From contig JAGPFL010000003.1 of NCBI GenBank assembly GCA_018056545.1, forward strand, positions 1 through 61,984: 61,984 nucleotides of DNA, in the 5' to 3' direction. Position 1 is the stretch's first letter; each line of letters opens with the position of its first letter. Made by a program: the position numbers and the translations under genes. Below are positions 17,931 to 23,560 of this stretch, piece by piece. This stretch comes from Syntrophobacterales bacterium. Its GTDB lineage: Bacteria > Desulfobacterota > Syntrophia > Syntrophales > UBA8958. Under the pieces are notes generated by a model that was given only the letters and a program-made list of their open reading frames with translations, did no database searches and was not told the DNA's origin.

Positions 17931-18041
17931 GTCGTCAATCCTGTTTCGGCACTCTTCCATAGCCCCTGTCCAGGGGGGGCTGCTGCGCCCCATATCTTCG
18001 GCAGGGAAACATATATAGAGGAACTGGGGGCCGGAAAAACT

Positions 18042-18070
18042 AAGGGCGGAGGCTTTTCGCCTCCGCCCTT
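18042..18070 (-). terminator. Strong intrinsic terminator of the small-ORF cassette
   Basis: A perfect 12-bp stem (AAGGGCGGAGGC with its complement) closes on a five-base loop. On the minus strand it is followed at once by AGTTTTT, so it would stop minus-strand transcripts coming from 18.6 kb. It may also stop plus-strand readthrough from the deacetylase gene. Confidence 0.85.
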
Positions 18071-18165
18071 GGCTTTGAGAGAGGCAGGTAATAATCTTTG
18101 TCGTTCCGGTGCCCTCTCTCGATCACTGCCGCGCTGGGGCAGTCATGGTCTTGTCTTATGTGCCG

Positions 18166-18240
18166 TCAGCCTTTCTTGTAGTGATAAGGCGTGCACATGG
18201 GGTCGATCCAACCCTTGTATGCCTTCTTTTCCTTCTTCAT
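18166..18240 (-). CDS. 24-residue micropeptide A with W-I-D-P-M-C-T-P motif
   Basis: A minus-strand ORF of 24 codons and a stop. AGGAGG stands eight bases before its ATG. The peptide starts MKKEKKAYKG, continues with the motif WIDPMCTP and ends in a basic YHYKKG. The same motif, with I changed to L, occurs in the next ORF upstream, and the 15 bases around the two ribosome-binding sites are identical. Shared motif, conserved start signals, and placement between a promoter and a terminator make translation likely. The single Cys, the Trp and the two Pro are the candidates for function or modification. I do not recognise the family. Confidence 0.7.
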   Translation of the reverse strand: MKKEKKAYKGWIDPMCTPYHYKKG

Positions 18241-18294
18241 GATCCTTGCCTCCTCTCTTAAGTGAAGAATCTTTGTCTTGTCTTCGGCCCTGGG

Positions 18295-18390
18295 CTACCT
18301 GGTTTCAATCGGGGTGCACATGGGGTCCAGCCAGGTCTTGCCCGCCTTCTTGGCGAATCTTTCCTCTTTCTTGGCGCCTGTCTTTTTCAT
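18295..18390 (-). CDS. 31-residue micropeptide B with W-L-D-P-M-C-T-P motif
   Basis: A minus-strand ORF of 31 codons and a stop, 54 bases upstream of micropeptide A in the same direction. AGGAGG lies eight bases before the ATG, within a 15-base stretch identical to that in front of A. The peptide opens with a basic helix-forming segment (MKKTGAKKEERFAKKAGK), then WLDPMCTP, and ends IETR. It is seven residues longer than A in front of the motif and lacks A's basic tail. The 14 bases that code for the middle of the motif are also the same in both. Probably a duplicate of A that has diverged outside the core. Confidence 0.7.
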   Translation of the reverse strand: MKKTGAKKEERFAKKAGKTWLDPMCTPIETR

Positions 18391-18415
18391 GGCTGCTGCC
18401 TCCTCTCTTAATGGT

Positions 18416-18532
18416 CTATAATCCTTTGAGCCCCACCGCATGGTTACGGTTGCTCCTGTTTCTCGTGGTGGTCTTCCCCAGGATATCTCTTTCGGGGTGG
18501 AACTCGAGTCTCTGGGTGCCGGTGGCGGTCAT
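18416..18532 (-). CDS. Possible 38-residue leading ORF of the micropeptide cassette
   Basis: A minus-strand ORF starting MTATGTQRLEF, preceded by GAGAGGAGA about ten bases before its ATG, and placed between the promoter at 18568-18596 and the two micropeptides. It lacks the DPMC motif and is rich in Thr, Arg and Asn in its second half. It may be a real small protein, a leader peptide or only a transcribed spacer. The similar ribosome-binding site argues for translation. Confidence 0.35.
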   Translation of the reverse strand: MTATGTQRLEFHPERDILGKTTTRNRSNRNHAVGLKGL

Positions 18533-18567
18533 GTTCTTTAAGTCTCCTCTCTCTTTCTTTCGGCCCT

Positions 18568-18596
18568 AAGATAATCCCGGAGGCTTTTTTCAACAA
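18568..18596 (-). promoter_or_regulatory. Promoter of the micropeptide cassette
   Basis: Read on the minus strand, TTGTTG and TATCTT are separated by 17 bases. Initiation would be about 25-30 bases before the first small ORF's ribosome-binding site. It reads towards the three small ORFs and the terminator at 18042-18070. Confidence 0.5.
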
Positions 18597-18789
18597 TCAG
18601 GGAGATGCTGAATGTGGGGTGGGAAATCGGCGTTAATGCGGATCAGGGGATGGGCGTTTCGGGATCGGGTTTTGTCCGATGTCGGAAGGGCGGCTTGGTT
18701 TTGATTAGGATGAGCGGGTGGCGGCGGGCCTTTGCTCCGGGACAATGAGCGGACCGGTGAGGGCTGATGGGTGGCGTTTCAAATACGGG

Positions 18790-18875: not shown

Positions 18876-20162
18876 ATGGAAAAATTCGACGTCATTGTGG
18901 TGGGGGCGGGACTGGCGGGATTGGCCGCCGCCTACACCCTGGCCGATAAGGGAGTGGAGGTTCTCCTCCTGGAGCGGGGGGACTATCCGGGGGCGAAAAA
19001 CGTCACCGGCGGCCGCCTTTACGTGAACCCCGTCCGGGACCTCTTTCCCGAGCTTTGGCCCGACGCCCCCCTGGAGCGGTTTATCGTCCACGAAGGGGCC
19101 ACCCTTATGGCCCGGGAGCGGTCCGTATCCTTCGACTATTCCGGCGACGAGCTGCGCCGGGAACCCCATCAGAGTTACAGCGTCCTGCGGGCCAGATTCG
19201 ACCGCTGGCTGGCGGAGCGGGTCGAGGAAAGGGGGGCCATGCTCCTCACCAAGACCCTGGTGACGGATGTCGTCAGAGAGGACGGCCGGGTGGCCGGCGT
19301 CGTGGCGGGGGGCGACGAGCTGCGGGCCGATGTCGTTATTGCCGCCGACGGCGTCCTTTCCCTCCTGGCGGAGAAGGCTGGTCTCCATCCCCCCGAAACT
19401 CCTGATGAATATGCCGTGGGCGTCAAGGAGGTCATCGCTCTGCCGGCGGAAAAGATCGAGGACCGCTTCCAGCTTACGGGCAACGAAGGGGCGGCCCGCC
19501 TCTTCGTCGGGGCGGCGACGGCGGGGCTCTTCGGCGGCGGCTTCCTCTATACCAACCGGGAGAGTATCAGCCTCGGTCTGGTGGTCGGGATCGCCGAGCT
19601 CATGGAGAAGGGCGGCCCGCGGGATCTGCCGGCGCTGATGGAGGCTTTCAAACGGCGTCCGGAGATCGCCCCCCTGATCCGGGACGGCGCCACGGTGGAA
19701 TACGCCGCCCATGTGATCCCCGAGGGGGGGTTCAAGGCCCTGCACCCCCTTCACGGCGACGGGATCCTCGTCGCCGGCGACGCCGCCGGTTTTGCCCTCA
19801 ACCTGGGATTCACCGTCCGGGGGATGGAATACGCCCTCGCCTCGGGTTATTACGCCGCCCAGGCGGTTCTCAAGGCCCGGGAGGCGGGGAATTTCGGTGC
19901 CGAGACCCTGGCGGAATACGGCCGCCTCCTCCAGGAGAGCTTCGTCCTCAAGGATTTCCAGAACTTCCAGGCCGCCCCGGCCTTCGTGAAAAATCCGAAG
20001 CTGTTCGATTATTATCCGGAATTGAAGGGACGGCTGCTCCGGGATGTCTATGCCGTCCCGGCGGGTCCCAAGGACCGCCTCTATCCCACCCTGCGCAAAT
20101 ACCTACATTTGAAAGAAATATGGTCCATGTTCAAGGACTTCCGGGAGGTGACGAAGCTTTGA
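18876..20162 (+). CDS. fixC: FixC-type flavoprotein (ETF-quinone oxidoreductase family)
   Basis: Passes electrons from electron-transfer flavoprotein to quinone at the membrane. The 428-residue protein begins with the FAD-binding dinucleotide fold IVVGAGLAGLAAAYTLADKG and LLERGDYPGAKNVTGGRLY, the latter diagnostic of the FixC group. A second FAD motif is GILVAGDAAGFALNLGFTVRGMEYA. It lacks the C-terminal ferredoxin domain found in mitochondrial ETF-QO; that part is supplied by the adjoining fixX. It heads a plus-strand cluster with fixX, an acyl-CoA dehydrogenase and both ETF subunits, which fits a role in fatty-acyl or aromatic acyl-CoA oxidation. Confidence 0.93.
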   Translation: MEKFDVIVVGAGLAGLAAAYTLADKGVEVLLLERGDYPGAKNVTGGRLYVNPVRDLFPELWPDAPLERFIVHEGATLMARERSVSFDYSGDELRREPHQSYSVLRARFDRWLAERVEERGAMLLTKTLVTDVVREDGRVAGVVAGGDELRADVVIAADGVLSLLAEKAGLHPPETPDEYAVGVKEVIALPAEKIEDRFQLTGNEGAARLFVGAATAGLFGGGFLYTNRESISLGLVVGIAELMEKGGPRDLPALMEAFKRRPEIAPLIRDGATVEYAAHVIPEGGFKALHPLHGDGILVAGDAAGFALNLGFTVRGMEYALASGYYAAQAVLKAREAGNFGAETLAEYGRLLQESFVLKDFQNFQAAPAFVKNPKLFDYYPELKGRLLRDVYAVPAGPKDRLYPTLRKYLHLKEIWSMFKDFREVTKL

Positions 20163-20443
20163 CGGATAACCATGAGCTGAAGGCCAAACTGGGCCTGGAT
20201 GTCTTCAAACCCGGCGGCCCCCCCCATATCCGCATCCGGGAGGGACGGGAGGGGGACCCCCGCCTGCGGAAAATGACGACAATCTGCCCTGCGGGCCTGT
20301 ACGGCGAGACCGAAGGGGGTAAGGTATCCCTCACCGTCGACGGCTGTCTCGAATGCGGGACCTGCCGCCTGGTTTGCAGTCCGGAGGTTTTGTCCTGGGA
20401 ATATCCGGAGGGCGGCACGGGGGTTCAGTTCCGTTACGGATGA
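20159..20443 (+). CDS. fixX: FixX-like ferredoxin
   Basis: A 94-residue ferredoxin-like protein partnering FixC. Cysteines lie in TTICPAGLY and in GCLECGTCRLVC, followed by the family ending SWEYPEGGTGVQFRYG, so one [4Fe-4S] cluster is likely. I place the start at the TTG overlapping the fixC stop (20159), because GGAGGTG lies eight bases upstream and this gives the normal FixX length; an ATG 39 bases earlier lies within fixC and adds residues unlike the family. Coupling to fixC translation is likely. Confidence 0.9.
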   Translation: MTDNHELKAKLGLDVFKPGGPPHIRIREGREGDPRLRKMTTICPAGLYGETEGGKVSLTVDGCLECGTCRLVCSPEVLSWEYPEGGTGVQFRYG

Positions 20444-20586
20444 CCCTTGGGCATTAGGGGGCGGTATCTATAGTGACCAAGCCTGCCGTCGACGCTGACG
20501 GTTCGGCCGGCGAAGCTAAGAATAAAGGGGCAGAGGAAATCACGGGCCGCTTGCGGTCTTGGAAAATACGAACGAGGAGGGGAAAT

Positions 20587-21726
20587 ATGGAATTCAAGCT
20601 GACGGAGGAACAGGAACTCATCCGCAAGAACATGCGGGAATTTGCCGACAAATACGTGGAGCCCATCGCCGCGGAGATCGACGAAAACAGCCGTCATCCC
20701 GCCGAGGTATTCAAGCTCCTCGCCGAGGGGGACTGGATGGGGATTCCCATTCCCGTGGAATACGGCGGCGCCGGCGCCGATTATCTCACCCATATCCTCG
20801 CCGTGGAGGAGCTGTCCCGGTCCTGCGCCTCCACAGGGTTCACCGTCTCCATCCACGTGGGGATCGCCTGTATGCTGGTGCTCCTCAACGGGACGGAAGA
20901 ACAGAAAAAACAATACCTTGTCCCCATGGCCAAGGGGGAGAAACTGGGAGCCTTCGTCCTCACCGAACCGGGGGCGGGCACGGACGTCATGGCCGCCACG
21001 ACGACGGCCGTCCGCGACGGTGATGACTACGTGATCAACGGCACCAAGACCTTCACCTCCAACGGTCCCACCGGGGATGTCTACATGGTCTTCGCCTGGA
21101 CGGACAAGGCGGCGGGACGCAAGGGCATGAGCTGTTTCATCATCCCCCGGGGCACCCCGGGCATGACCCCCGGCGAGCACTTCCGGAAGATGGGCCTCCG
21201 TTCCTCCCAGACCTCGGAGATGGTCTTCAAGGACTGCCGCGTCCCCAAGGAGAACCTCCTGGGCAAGGAGGGGGCGGGGCTGGTCATGGCCATGGCCGGG
21301 TTCGATCACGGCCGGGTGGGCATCGCCGCCCAATCCGTGGGTATCCTCCAGGCCGCCCTGGACGAGTCGATCCGCTATTCCAAGGAACGGGTCCAGTTCG
21401 GCAATCCCATCTCCCGCAACCAGGCCATCTCCTGGATGATCGCCAATATGGCCACGGATCTCCAGGCCGCCCGCTTCCTGACCTATCACGCCGCCTGGCT
21501 GAAGGATCAGAAACAGGTCTTCAGCAAGGAGGCCTCCATGGCCAAGCTCTTCGCCTCGGAAGCGGCGATGCGCCACACCATCAAGGCCGTCCAGATCCAC
21601 GGCGGCTACGGTTACTGCAAGGGTGCCAAGGTGGAGCGCCTCTTCCGGGACGCCAAGATCACGGAGATCTACGAAGGCACCTCGGAGGCCCAACGGATGG
21701 TCATTTCCGGCAACGTCCTCCGGTGA
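20587..21726 (+). CDS. Acyl-CoA dehydrogenase (first copy)
   Basis: FAD enzyme that forms the alpha-beta double bond in an acyl-CoA and gives the electrons to ETF. The 379 residues cover the whole family fold: N-terminal helices (LTEEQELIRKNMREFA), the FAD-binding FVLTEPGAGTDV and TFTSNG motifs, and the C-terminal helical domain with QIHGGYGYCKGAKVERLFRDAKI. The catalytic Glu is expected in EIYEGTSEAQ. The ATG at 20587 follows GAGGAGGGGAAAT. It sits between fixX and etfB. A close relative is encoded at 50.8 kb on the other strand. Chain-length preference cannot be read. Confidence 0.95.
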   Translation: MEFKLTEEQELIRKNMREFADKYVEPIAAEIDENSRHPAEVFKLLAEGDWMGIPIPVEYGGAGADYLTHILAVEELSRSCASTGFTVSIHVGIACMLVLLNGTEEQKKQYLVPMAKGEKLGAFVLTEPGAGTDVMAATTTAVRDGDDYVINGTKTFTSNGPTGDVYMVFAWTDKAAGRKGMSCFIIPRGTPGMTPGEHFRKMGLRSSQTSEMVFKDCRVPKENLLGKEGAGLVMAMAGFDHGRVGIAAQSVGILQAALDESIRYSKERVQFGNPISRNQAISWMIANMATDLQAARFLTYHAAWLKDQKQVFSKEASMAKLFASEAAMRHTIKAVQIHGGYGYCKGAKVERLFRDAKITEIYEGTSEAQRMVISGNVLR

Positions 21727-21735
21727 AGGATAATC

Positions 21736-21801
21736 GGGACGGTTCTTCCTTTACCGGGAAAACGGAAGTGGGAAGCATTTATGAAAAATGAGAACCGTCC
21801 C
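21736..21801. repeat. REP-like inverted repeat between acyl-CoA dehydrogenase and etfB
   Basis: An 11-bp perfect inverted repeat, GGGACGGTTCT and AGAACCGTCCC, brackets a 44-base loop. Elements with this type of end (GAGAACCGTCCC) are, from general knowledge, often dispersed REP-like sequences mobilised by REP-associated transposases; no such transposase is in the window. It interrupts the run of the cluster and may attenuate or stabilise the mRNA. Confidence 0.55.
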
Positions 21802-21825
21802 CATTTCTACTTAAAGGATTGACCT

Positions 21826-22596
21826 ATGCCCAATGTTATTGCCTGCTGCAAATGGGTAGTGGATGAAGCGTACATACGGAAGGGAGCCGGCGGGGCGCTG
21901 GATTTCTCCGCCGTCGATTACAAGCTCAGCGAGTACGACCGCAACGCCCTCGAGGAGGCGGTGCGCTGCCGGGGCGAGGCGGGGGGGAAGGTGACGGCCC
22001 TTACCGCCGGTGCCCCCGAAGCCGCCAAAGGGGTGAAGGACGCCCTTTCCCGGGGCGCCGACACCGCCGTTTTCGTCGGCGATCCCGCCTTTGCCGACCT
22101 GGATTCCTCCCAGACGGCGGCGGTCCTGGGCGAGGTGATCCGCAGCCGTATTCCCTACGACCTGATCATCTGCGGTGAGGGCTCCGGCGACCGGTACGCC
22201 CAGCAGGTAGGCCCCCGCCTGGCGGAGCACCTGGGCATTCCGTGCGTCTCCTACGTCCTGAAGCTTTCCTTGACAGGGGAGGGGGCGGGGATCACGGCGG
22301 AAAGGCGGGTGGAGGAGGGTGTCGAAGTCGTCGAGGTTCCTTTTCCTGTCCTGGTGACGGTCCTGCCGGAGATCAACACCCCCCGGATCCCCGGGGTAAA
22401 GGATACCCTCATGGCGGGGAAGAAACCCGTCGTCACGGTGAAAAAGGACGAACTGCCCCCCCTAGGAGAGGTGAAACTCAAGACCCTGGACATGACGGCG
22501 GCGCGGATGGAGAGAAACTGCGAACTCTTCGGGACGACGCCCGAGGACATCGCCCGGTTCGTGGCGGCGCTGCAACAGAAGGGCGTAATCGGATAA
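21826..22596 (+). CDS. etfB: Electron transfer flavoprotein, beta subunit
   Basis: Small subunit of the heterodimeric ETF that carries electrons from acyl-CoA dehydrogenase to FixC. The 256 residues show the typical ETF-beta pattern: CKWVVDE at the start, SEYDRNALEEAVR, VTALTAGAPEAAK, ALSRGADTAVFV, and the AMP-binding segment DLIICGEGSGDRYAQQVGPRLAEHL. The ATG follows AAAGGA. It is the fourth gene of the cluster and ends ten bases before etfA. Confidence 0.94.
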   Translation: MPNVIACCKWVVDEAYIRKGAGGALDFSAVDYKLSEYDRNALEEAVRCRGEAGGKVTALTAGAPEAAKGVKDALSRGADTAVFVGDPAFADLDSSQTAAVLGEVIRSRIPYDLIICGEGSGDRYAQQVGPRLAEHLGIPCVSYVLKLSLTGEGAGITAERRVEEGVEVVEVPFPVLVTVLPEINTPRIPGVKDTLMAGKKPVVTVKKDELPPLGEVKLKTLDMTAARMERNCELFGTTPEDIARFVAALQQKGVIG

Positions 22597-22606
22597 AGAG
22601 GTGAAC

Positions 22607-23560
22607 ATGGCCGGCATCTGGATCATCGCGGAAAAAAGGGAATTGCTGATGGAACTTCTCACCCCCGCCGGGCAGTTGGCCGCCCCGGGGGGGAAAAGGA
22701 TTACCGTGGTCATCCCGGAAACCGAGGGCGACCCGGCGGATTATATCGCCGCCGGCGCCGGGGCGGTGGCGCTGTTGGGCTCTCTGCCCGAAGACATGGC
22801 CTTCGCGAGCTGGCTGCCCGTTCTGGCGGCGGAGATCGGGGCGGCGGATCCCGAGGTAGTGCTCCTGGCCGCCACCTCCCGGGGGAAAGAGCTGGCGGCC
22901 CGCCTGGCGGCCCGCCTGGAAACCGGTCTGTGCAGCAACTGCCTGTCCCTGATCCCCGGTCCCGACGGAAGCCTTGTCATGGAACGCCTTGCCTACGGCG
23001 GGGCGGCCCTCCAGCGGGTAACCGTTGCGGGACGGCCGGTTATGGCGACGATCCCCCCGCGGACCTTTCCGCCGGCCGCGACGGGTACCGGGCGGGAAGG
23101 GGAGGTGCGCAAGCTCCCGCCGCCCCCGCCGGACCCCGTCCGGATCGTCGCCCGGAAAGAGAAGGAGCGGAGCGCCCAGGACATCACCGCCGCCAAGACC
23201 GTGGTCTGTGTGGGTCGGGGTGTGGAAAAGCGGGAAGACCTGGACCTCGCCCGGCGGTTGGCCGCCGCCCTGGGGGGCGAGGTCGGCTGCACCCGTCCCA
23301 TCTCCGAGGAGCTCCACTGGCTGCCCGACAACCTCTGTATCGGCCTGTCCGGCGTCCAGGTGAAACCGGAGCTGTACATCGGCCTGGGCGTCTCCGGGCA
23401 GATCCAGCATCTGACGGGACTGCGGGGCGCCCGGTTGCTCTGCGCCGTAAACCGGGACCCCAACGCCCCCATCTTTGCCGCGGCGGATCTGGGGATCGTG
23501 GGGGATCTCTACGAGGTCACGCCCAAACTCTTAGAGGAACTAAAGAAGATTCGAGGTTAA
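22607..23560 (+). CDS. etfA: Electron transfer flavoprotein, alpha subunit
   Basis: Large, FAD-bearing ETF subunit. The C-terminal domain carries the FAD signature in order: VCVGRGVEKREDLDLARRLA, GGEVGCTRPISEE, YIGLGVSGQIQHLTG and AVNRDPNAPIFAAADLGIVGD. The 317-residue length matches the family. I choose the ATG at 22607, since AGAGGTGA just before it is a good ribosome-binding site; the GTG two codons earlier overlaps that site. No extra ferredoxin domain is fused to it. It closes the fixC-to-etfA cluster. Confidence 0.94.
   Translation: MAGIWIIAEKRELLMELLTPAGQLAAPGGKRITVVIPETEGDPADYIAAGAGAVALLGSLPEDMAFASWLPVLAAEIGAADPEVVLLAATSRGKELAARLAARLETGLCSNCLSLIPGPDGSLVMERLAYGGAALQRVTVAGRPVMATIPPRTFPPAATGTGREGEVRKLPPPPPDPVRIVARKEKERSAQDITAAKTVVCVGRGVEKREDLDLARRLAAALGGEVGCTRPISEELHWLPDNLCIGLSGVQVKPELYIGLGVSGQIQHLTGLRGARLLCAVNRDPNAPIFAAADLGIVGDLYEVTPKLLEELKKIRG

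Follow-up and report, generated by a model that had tools for sequence, protein, structure and literature searches.

Cassettes of tandem micro-ORFs, one of which lies on the minus strand at positions 18035-18600 of the 61,984-nucleotide stretch of Syntrophales DNA analysed here (the window), appear to encode a previously undescribed family of regulatory micropeptides, because their shared promoter, often beside genes for a sensor kinase and a response regulator, also precedes carboxylate and acyl-CoA genes. We put at about even the chances that they constitute, in Syntrophales, a micropeptide regulon of syntrophic carboxylate metabolism under two-component control, in which the peptides would serve as cytosolic protein-binding modulators.

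The cassette of the window comprises three tandem micro-ORFs of 38, 31 and 24 codons, each preceded by a strong Shine-Dalgarno (SD) sequence. Its parts are the following:

18664..18680, minus strand: distal operator-like inverted repeat ATCGG-N7-CCGAT, an exact match; in cassettes from five families it is conserved as TCRGAC-N5-CYGAT.
18594..18613, minus strand: proximal operator-like site ATTCAGC..CCTGATTG, overlapping the -35 element; the spacing to the distal site is constant at about 67 bp.
18556..18679, minus strand: complete conserved promoter, matched by model R1 with 77.7 bits and an E-value of 8.9e-22, the window sequence itself being part of the R1 training set.
18568..18596, minus strand: sigma70-like promoter with -35 TTGTTG, 17 bp and -10 TATCTT; the -10 is kept as TTATnTTA.
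18416..18532, minus strand: pepA, 38 aa, EF-x-P-x-RDILGK type, with an AGGAG SD; kept in 10 loci.
18295..18390, minus strand: pepB, 31 aa, with WLDPMCTP (MKKTGAKKEERFAKKAGKTWLDPMCTPIETR); 14 distinct 31-aa sequences in the family.
18166..18240, minus strand: pepC, 24 aa, with WIDPMCTP (MKKEKKAYKGWIDPMCTPYHYKKG); 13 copies in the family, 5 of them with Ala in place of Cys.
18125..18143, minus strand: first hairpin of the 3' UTR, ACTGCC...GGCAGT; position conserved in 14 cassettes.
18077..18120, minus strand: second hairpin of the 3' UTR, GAGAGAGG...CCTCTCTC; conserved in most of the 14 cassettes.
18035..18070, minus strand: intrinsic terminator seen in the sequence, with a 12-bp stem, a GAAAA loop and T5; one pair changes from G-C to A-U in 3 sequences.

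The original prediction had placed an AGGAGG 8 nt before the ATG of both the 24- and the 31-codon ORF, with the same leader (TTAAGAGAGGAGGCA) ahead of each, and had given the unit its own promoter (17-bp spacing, 18568-18596) and its own terminator (12-bp stem, T5). All of these elements were recovered on the minus strand. A further copy of the motif, the third in the window's genome, lies on a different contig.

Purifying selection on the three ORFs is confined to the coding frame, and they are therefore very probably translated. Among copies from the window's genus, in-frame dN/dS was 0.31 for pepA, 0.13 for pepB and 0.15 for pepC, compared to 0.6-2.6 (0.64-2.56) in the shifted frames, and most changes in pepB and pepC fall at third codon positions. 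The suggested conservation at the protein level is thus confirmed, with values well under, and not near, 1. By the same measure pepA, which had been put forward as a possible third ORF, is likewise real. Structure prediction for pepB gave an uninformative model (pLDDT 61).

The regions upstream of the cassettes of five families align with nearly constant spacing and delimit a 125-bp promoter, which consists of TCRGAC-N5-CYGAT, a second such site about 67 bp further on that overlaps the -35, TTATnTTA and then TCGAAAGA. R1, a sequence-only model of this promoter whose shortened calibration makes its E-values rough, had matches in 67 of 154 genomes of the class; the weakest of these matches, with E-values around 0.05, are doubtful. 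The phylum sample added just two genomes from beyond the class at E≤1e-4; in one of them (G204) the match lies near a homologous kinase gene, ahead of a zinc-finger/CoA-transferase gene. Metabolic genes also stand behind this promoter, and this ties the micropeptides to syntrophic carboxylate metabolism: an acetate-CoA ligase type (ADP-forming) in several genomes of f14, methylmalonyl-CoA mutase in G009 and G033, a thiolase-like start in G092, 3-hydroxyacyl-CoA dehydrogenase and a FadX-like CoA-transferase after a small zinc-finger-like protein in G127/G053, and a FocA-like formate transporter in G065/G077. Several of these matches fall under the equivalog cut-offs, and the names are therefore family-level. 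The small zinc-finger-like protein (C..CGK..C..CG..C..C..EIWG.GAEDL..CP.CK..NPWGA) was seen at loci L170, L263, L264 and L286, without a Pfam match in L263; it precedes a 3-hydroxyacyl-CoA dehydrogenase in L263 and L264 and a CoA-transferase in L264 and L286.

Genes for a 212-aa LuxR-type response regulator and a multi-PAS kinase are located directly upstream of cassettes in two families. The kinase combines PAS repeats with HisKA_3 and HATPase_c domains. The window's own genome (G000) has a regulator homologue with 75% identity to the f6 query, and its PF00072 receiver and PF00196 (GerE HTH) domains are those of the NarL/FixJ (LuxR-HTH) class. In all, 72 of the 154 class genomes encode homologues at E≤1e-45. 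In 24 genomes, where 0.015 would be expected, an R1 match lies on the strand of the regulator gene and no more than 500 bp downstream of it; most of these genomes are absent from the R1 training set, and the linkages share ancestry and do not represent 24 independent events. Further genomes have an R1 match within 7 kb of the regulator gene.

It is unlikely that the micropeptides, while real and co-regulated, answer to a transcription factor other than this regulator, since the direct adjacency in 24 genomes persists while the cargo changes. In favour of another factor, G002, a genome rated 100% complete, retains promoters and peptides without a close kinase or regulator gene. This state perhaps reflects decay of an orphaned regulon. 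In G002 (L265, L266), one cassette retains pepA, and its pepB looks broken. In the window's genus, kinase and regulator genes do not adjoin any cassette. In G001, a fragment of the kinase gene is cut at a contig end and the regulator is missing, which the truncation of the locus may explain.

The best NCBIfam match of the regulator is UvrY/SirA/GacA (NF007018), with 178.4 bits, below the curated cut-off of 280. Like the regulators of that family, which have CsrB/RsmZ-type targets, it has a receiver and a LuxR HTH domain and appears to drive short GGA-rich transcripts; unlike them it stays below the family cut-off, its transcripts encode conserved peptides, and several carriers have no CsrA. 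The 3' ends deserve mention in this context. Three hairpins, the terminator last, close 14 cassettes in the window's genus; their covariation is modest (double changes in 3 of 26 pairs), and the 5' arm of the second hairpin, GAGAGAGG, resembles or repeats the SD leader, a likeness that may permit translational control. Together with the GGA-rich leaders and the NCBIfam match, the conserved hairpins would suit an RNA that is itself the functional product, such as a CsrA sponge or similar sRNA controlled by GacA/UvrY, in which the GGA-rich SDs matter and the ORFs are incidental or secondary. We hold this to be quite improbable in view of the dN/dS values of 0.13-0.31, found in the coding frame only, and the lack of any Rfam match at gathering score for the cassette. 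Moreover, no CsrA was found in G033, G013, G032 and G065, which are all rated 100% complete and all carry cassettes, and a CsrA sponge is therefore excluded as a general explanation. The same search found none in G000 and G007, and CsrA is present in G001, G003, G006, G102 and G103.

In 100 related genomes, the W-[IL]-D-P-M-C-T-P-type pattern was found at 38 places in 16 genomes, compared to 2 places for the reversed control pattern, which is more than chance; the homologous motifs with conserved reading frame that had been anticipated in relatives are thus present. Of 395 genomes from the phylum, just two, G000 and G002 from the window's genus, contain the exact pattern, and a profile built from 22 peptides (A1) has matches in several Syntrophales families, up to 12 per genome. 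The loci examined yielded 93 distinct SD-led peptides with W-x-D-P-[MTSLI]-x-x-P, nearly all from Syntrophales. Contigs with names belong to MAGs of Syntrophus-like, deltaproteobacterial or pseudomonadotal type, and one carries a Bacteroidota label, which may be a binning error. As the search expression fixes W, D, P and P, the remaining positions alone are informative: Met is found in 79 and Cys in 53 of the 93 cores, and Ala, Ser or another residue (including Asn and Leu) takes the Cys position in 40, relatives of the window's own 24-mer included. The peptides measure 24-60 residues with a mean net charge of about +5, and the stretch preceding W is 40% Lys+Arg; their N-terminal parts are basic but share no common leader.

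At least four further micropeptide families accompany the W-x-D-P type in the same operons or behind the same promoter, namely pepA-like peptides (EFNPQRDILG, DPRINLMGERV), a YESTLID type, an I-x-N-x-VP C-terminal type and a LTKAEYARYLEAMK type. Strings of micro-ORFs with SDs make up dozens of cassettes, dispersed in the window's genome and in relatives, and cassettes gain or lose units, some having extra peptides, for example MKKTIEKKAFKGEKVLGKQEPECYESTLIDNVIC or a second W-V-DPMC peptide. The pepB copy at L035:8573-8698(+) has 1 nt inserted in its core (WLDPYVH) and is followed by another W-V-DPMC unit, which we read as birth and death of units inside cassettes. Within pepA-type frames, the first micro-ORF of cassettes in three genomes (L031, L041, L267) contains a recurring in-frame stretch of about 28 residues (CLCPxWMCWMP..DGE), reminiscent of a small coding repeat of selfish or modular nature. 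In L160, L167, L268 and again L267, a second SD-led ORF (e.g. MPSIPGKKASKLRPKKQTVERAL) on the same transcript overlaps the LTKAEYARYLEAMK micro-ORF in a different frame. Judged by what is conserved, a mobile repeat was rejected as the nature of the dispersed cassettes: promoter, ORFs and 3' UTR are each retained as a functional part of their own, and peptide sequences vary between families.

The view that the motif belongs to no described family was upheld. Pfam and NCBIfam profile searches with the peptides gave no family match (one hit below cut-off, E 0.63), Rfam gave chance-level hits with none at gathering score, and a literature search for such peptides in Syntrophus found nothing. Geopeptide/GeoRSP was dropped as a lead, with no family match and no relevant literature found. 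The N-terminus of the YHS domain reads DPVCGM, and the WVDPMCGP subfamily has a short D-P-x-C-G likeness to it; unlike in that domain, the Cys is not conserved in the micropeptides, which gave no Pfam hit to it even at E 10.

Since Cys is present in only 53 of the 93 cores, the roles that had been suggested for it are weakened. Binding of a metal, haem or redox cofactor through Cys, Met and Trp, which the frequency of Met and Cys would favour, has a low probability: Ala, Ser, Asn or Leu freely replace Cys in 40 cores, pepC relatives among them, a second conserved ligand such as His is absent, and the core is absent from other micropeptides of the regulon. Slightly less credible still is a role as RiPP precursors, with a leader and a D-P-M-C-x-P core modified by a maturase acting in trans, or a chemistry at Cys-Thr-Pro as originally envisaged. 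The peptides do resemble RiPP precursor arrays in being short, tandem and multi-copy and in pairing a conserved core at the C-terminal end with a basic N-terminal part. Unlike such arrays, however, they have no invariant modifiable Cys, no shared leader, their N-terminal parts being different, and no NCBIfam or Pfam precursor match; among the 87 neighbour proteins tallied, no maturase, protease or exporter recurs (radical SAM, 2 of 87). Small cationic toxins, antimicrobials or toxin-antitoxin parts are very unlikely: the peptides are tiny, multi-copy and charged, but they have no long hydrophobic stretch, several unrelated ones share an operon, their promoter is common to central metabolic enzymes, and no antitoxin-like partner was seen.

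As to genomic context, a tandem arrangement was found, but one fixed set of neighbours was not, and a fixed genomic neighbourhood is rejected because the neighbours differ at nearly every locus. For the same reason, the proposal that the cassette is an accessory of the adjacent fixC cluster is not supported as stated. The raw tally of the 87 neighbours includes 4HBT thioesterases (6 of 87) and CoA-transferase/hydrolase families, several of which represent orthologous loci. In the window, a divergent cluster at 18876-23560 (plus strand) encodes a fixC-like oxidoreductase, a ferredoxin-like protein, an acyl-CoA dehydrogenase-like protein and two Etf-like proteins, and starts about 200 bp from the cassette operator. 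Shared control of cluster and cassette is possible, yet most other cassettes have no such neighbour. A broader tie to acyl-CoA and electron metabolism does emerge, by way of the shared promoter and not of adjacency to fixC.

For the two-component-controlled regulon, we propose the following course of events. The multi-PAS histidine kinase would sense a signal, probably intracellular, that is tied to carboxylate/acyl-CoA or redox status, and phosphorylate the NarL/LuxR-type response regulator. The regulator would then occupy the two TCRGAC-N5-CYGAT sites, the second of them at the -35, and activate transcription of a short mRNA with one to about six strongly initiated micro-ORFs, which in the window's genus would close with the three-hairpin 3' UTR including the terminator. 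The resulting basic peptides of 24-60 residues, among which a W-x-D-P-M-x-x-P core is common, probably modulate proteins in the cytosol by binding to them and may act as adaptors or inhibitors. Their partners would belong to the same physiology, i.e. acyl-CoA/acetate activation, beta-oxidation steps, methylmalonyl-CoA mutase and formate transport, functions that relatives place under the micropeptide promoter.

This mode of action is modelled on small proteins of cyanobacteria (IF7/IF17, the 5.8-kDa PirA, the 44-aa AcnSP and the 66-aa NblD), which bind enzymes, PII or other proteins and tune carbon and nitrogen flux, with gifA and gifB under NtcA (PMC7760959). In both cases small proteins are tied to metabolic regulation, here through a promoter common to metabolic genes. 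Unlike the cyanobacterial regulators, to which no sequence relation was seen, the Syntrophales peptides are tandem, occupy many dispersed loci, share a core at 24-60 aa, and have a promoter with links to a two-component system.

The present analysis yields a candidate regulator, a putative operator, a metabolic gene set behind the same promoter and more than 90 micropeptides that Pfam, NCBIfam and Rfam do not recognise. Syntrophic degraders of fatty and aromatic acids are responsible for a key step in the anaerobic turnover of carbon to methane, and to our knowledge the tuning of their reversible, near-equilibrium pathways is poorly understood. It is conceivable, with a probability that we place somewhat short of even, that a single two-component system throughout the order controls carboxylate enzymes jointly with dozens of tandem micropeptides from several families unrelated to one another, and that the W-x-D-P-M peptides are interchangeable adaptors that reprogram those enzymes or their complexes. 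If true, such an order-wide adaptor regulon would represent a new regulatory layer for life near the thermodynamic limit.
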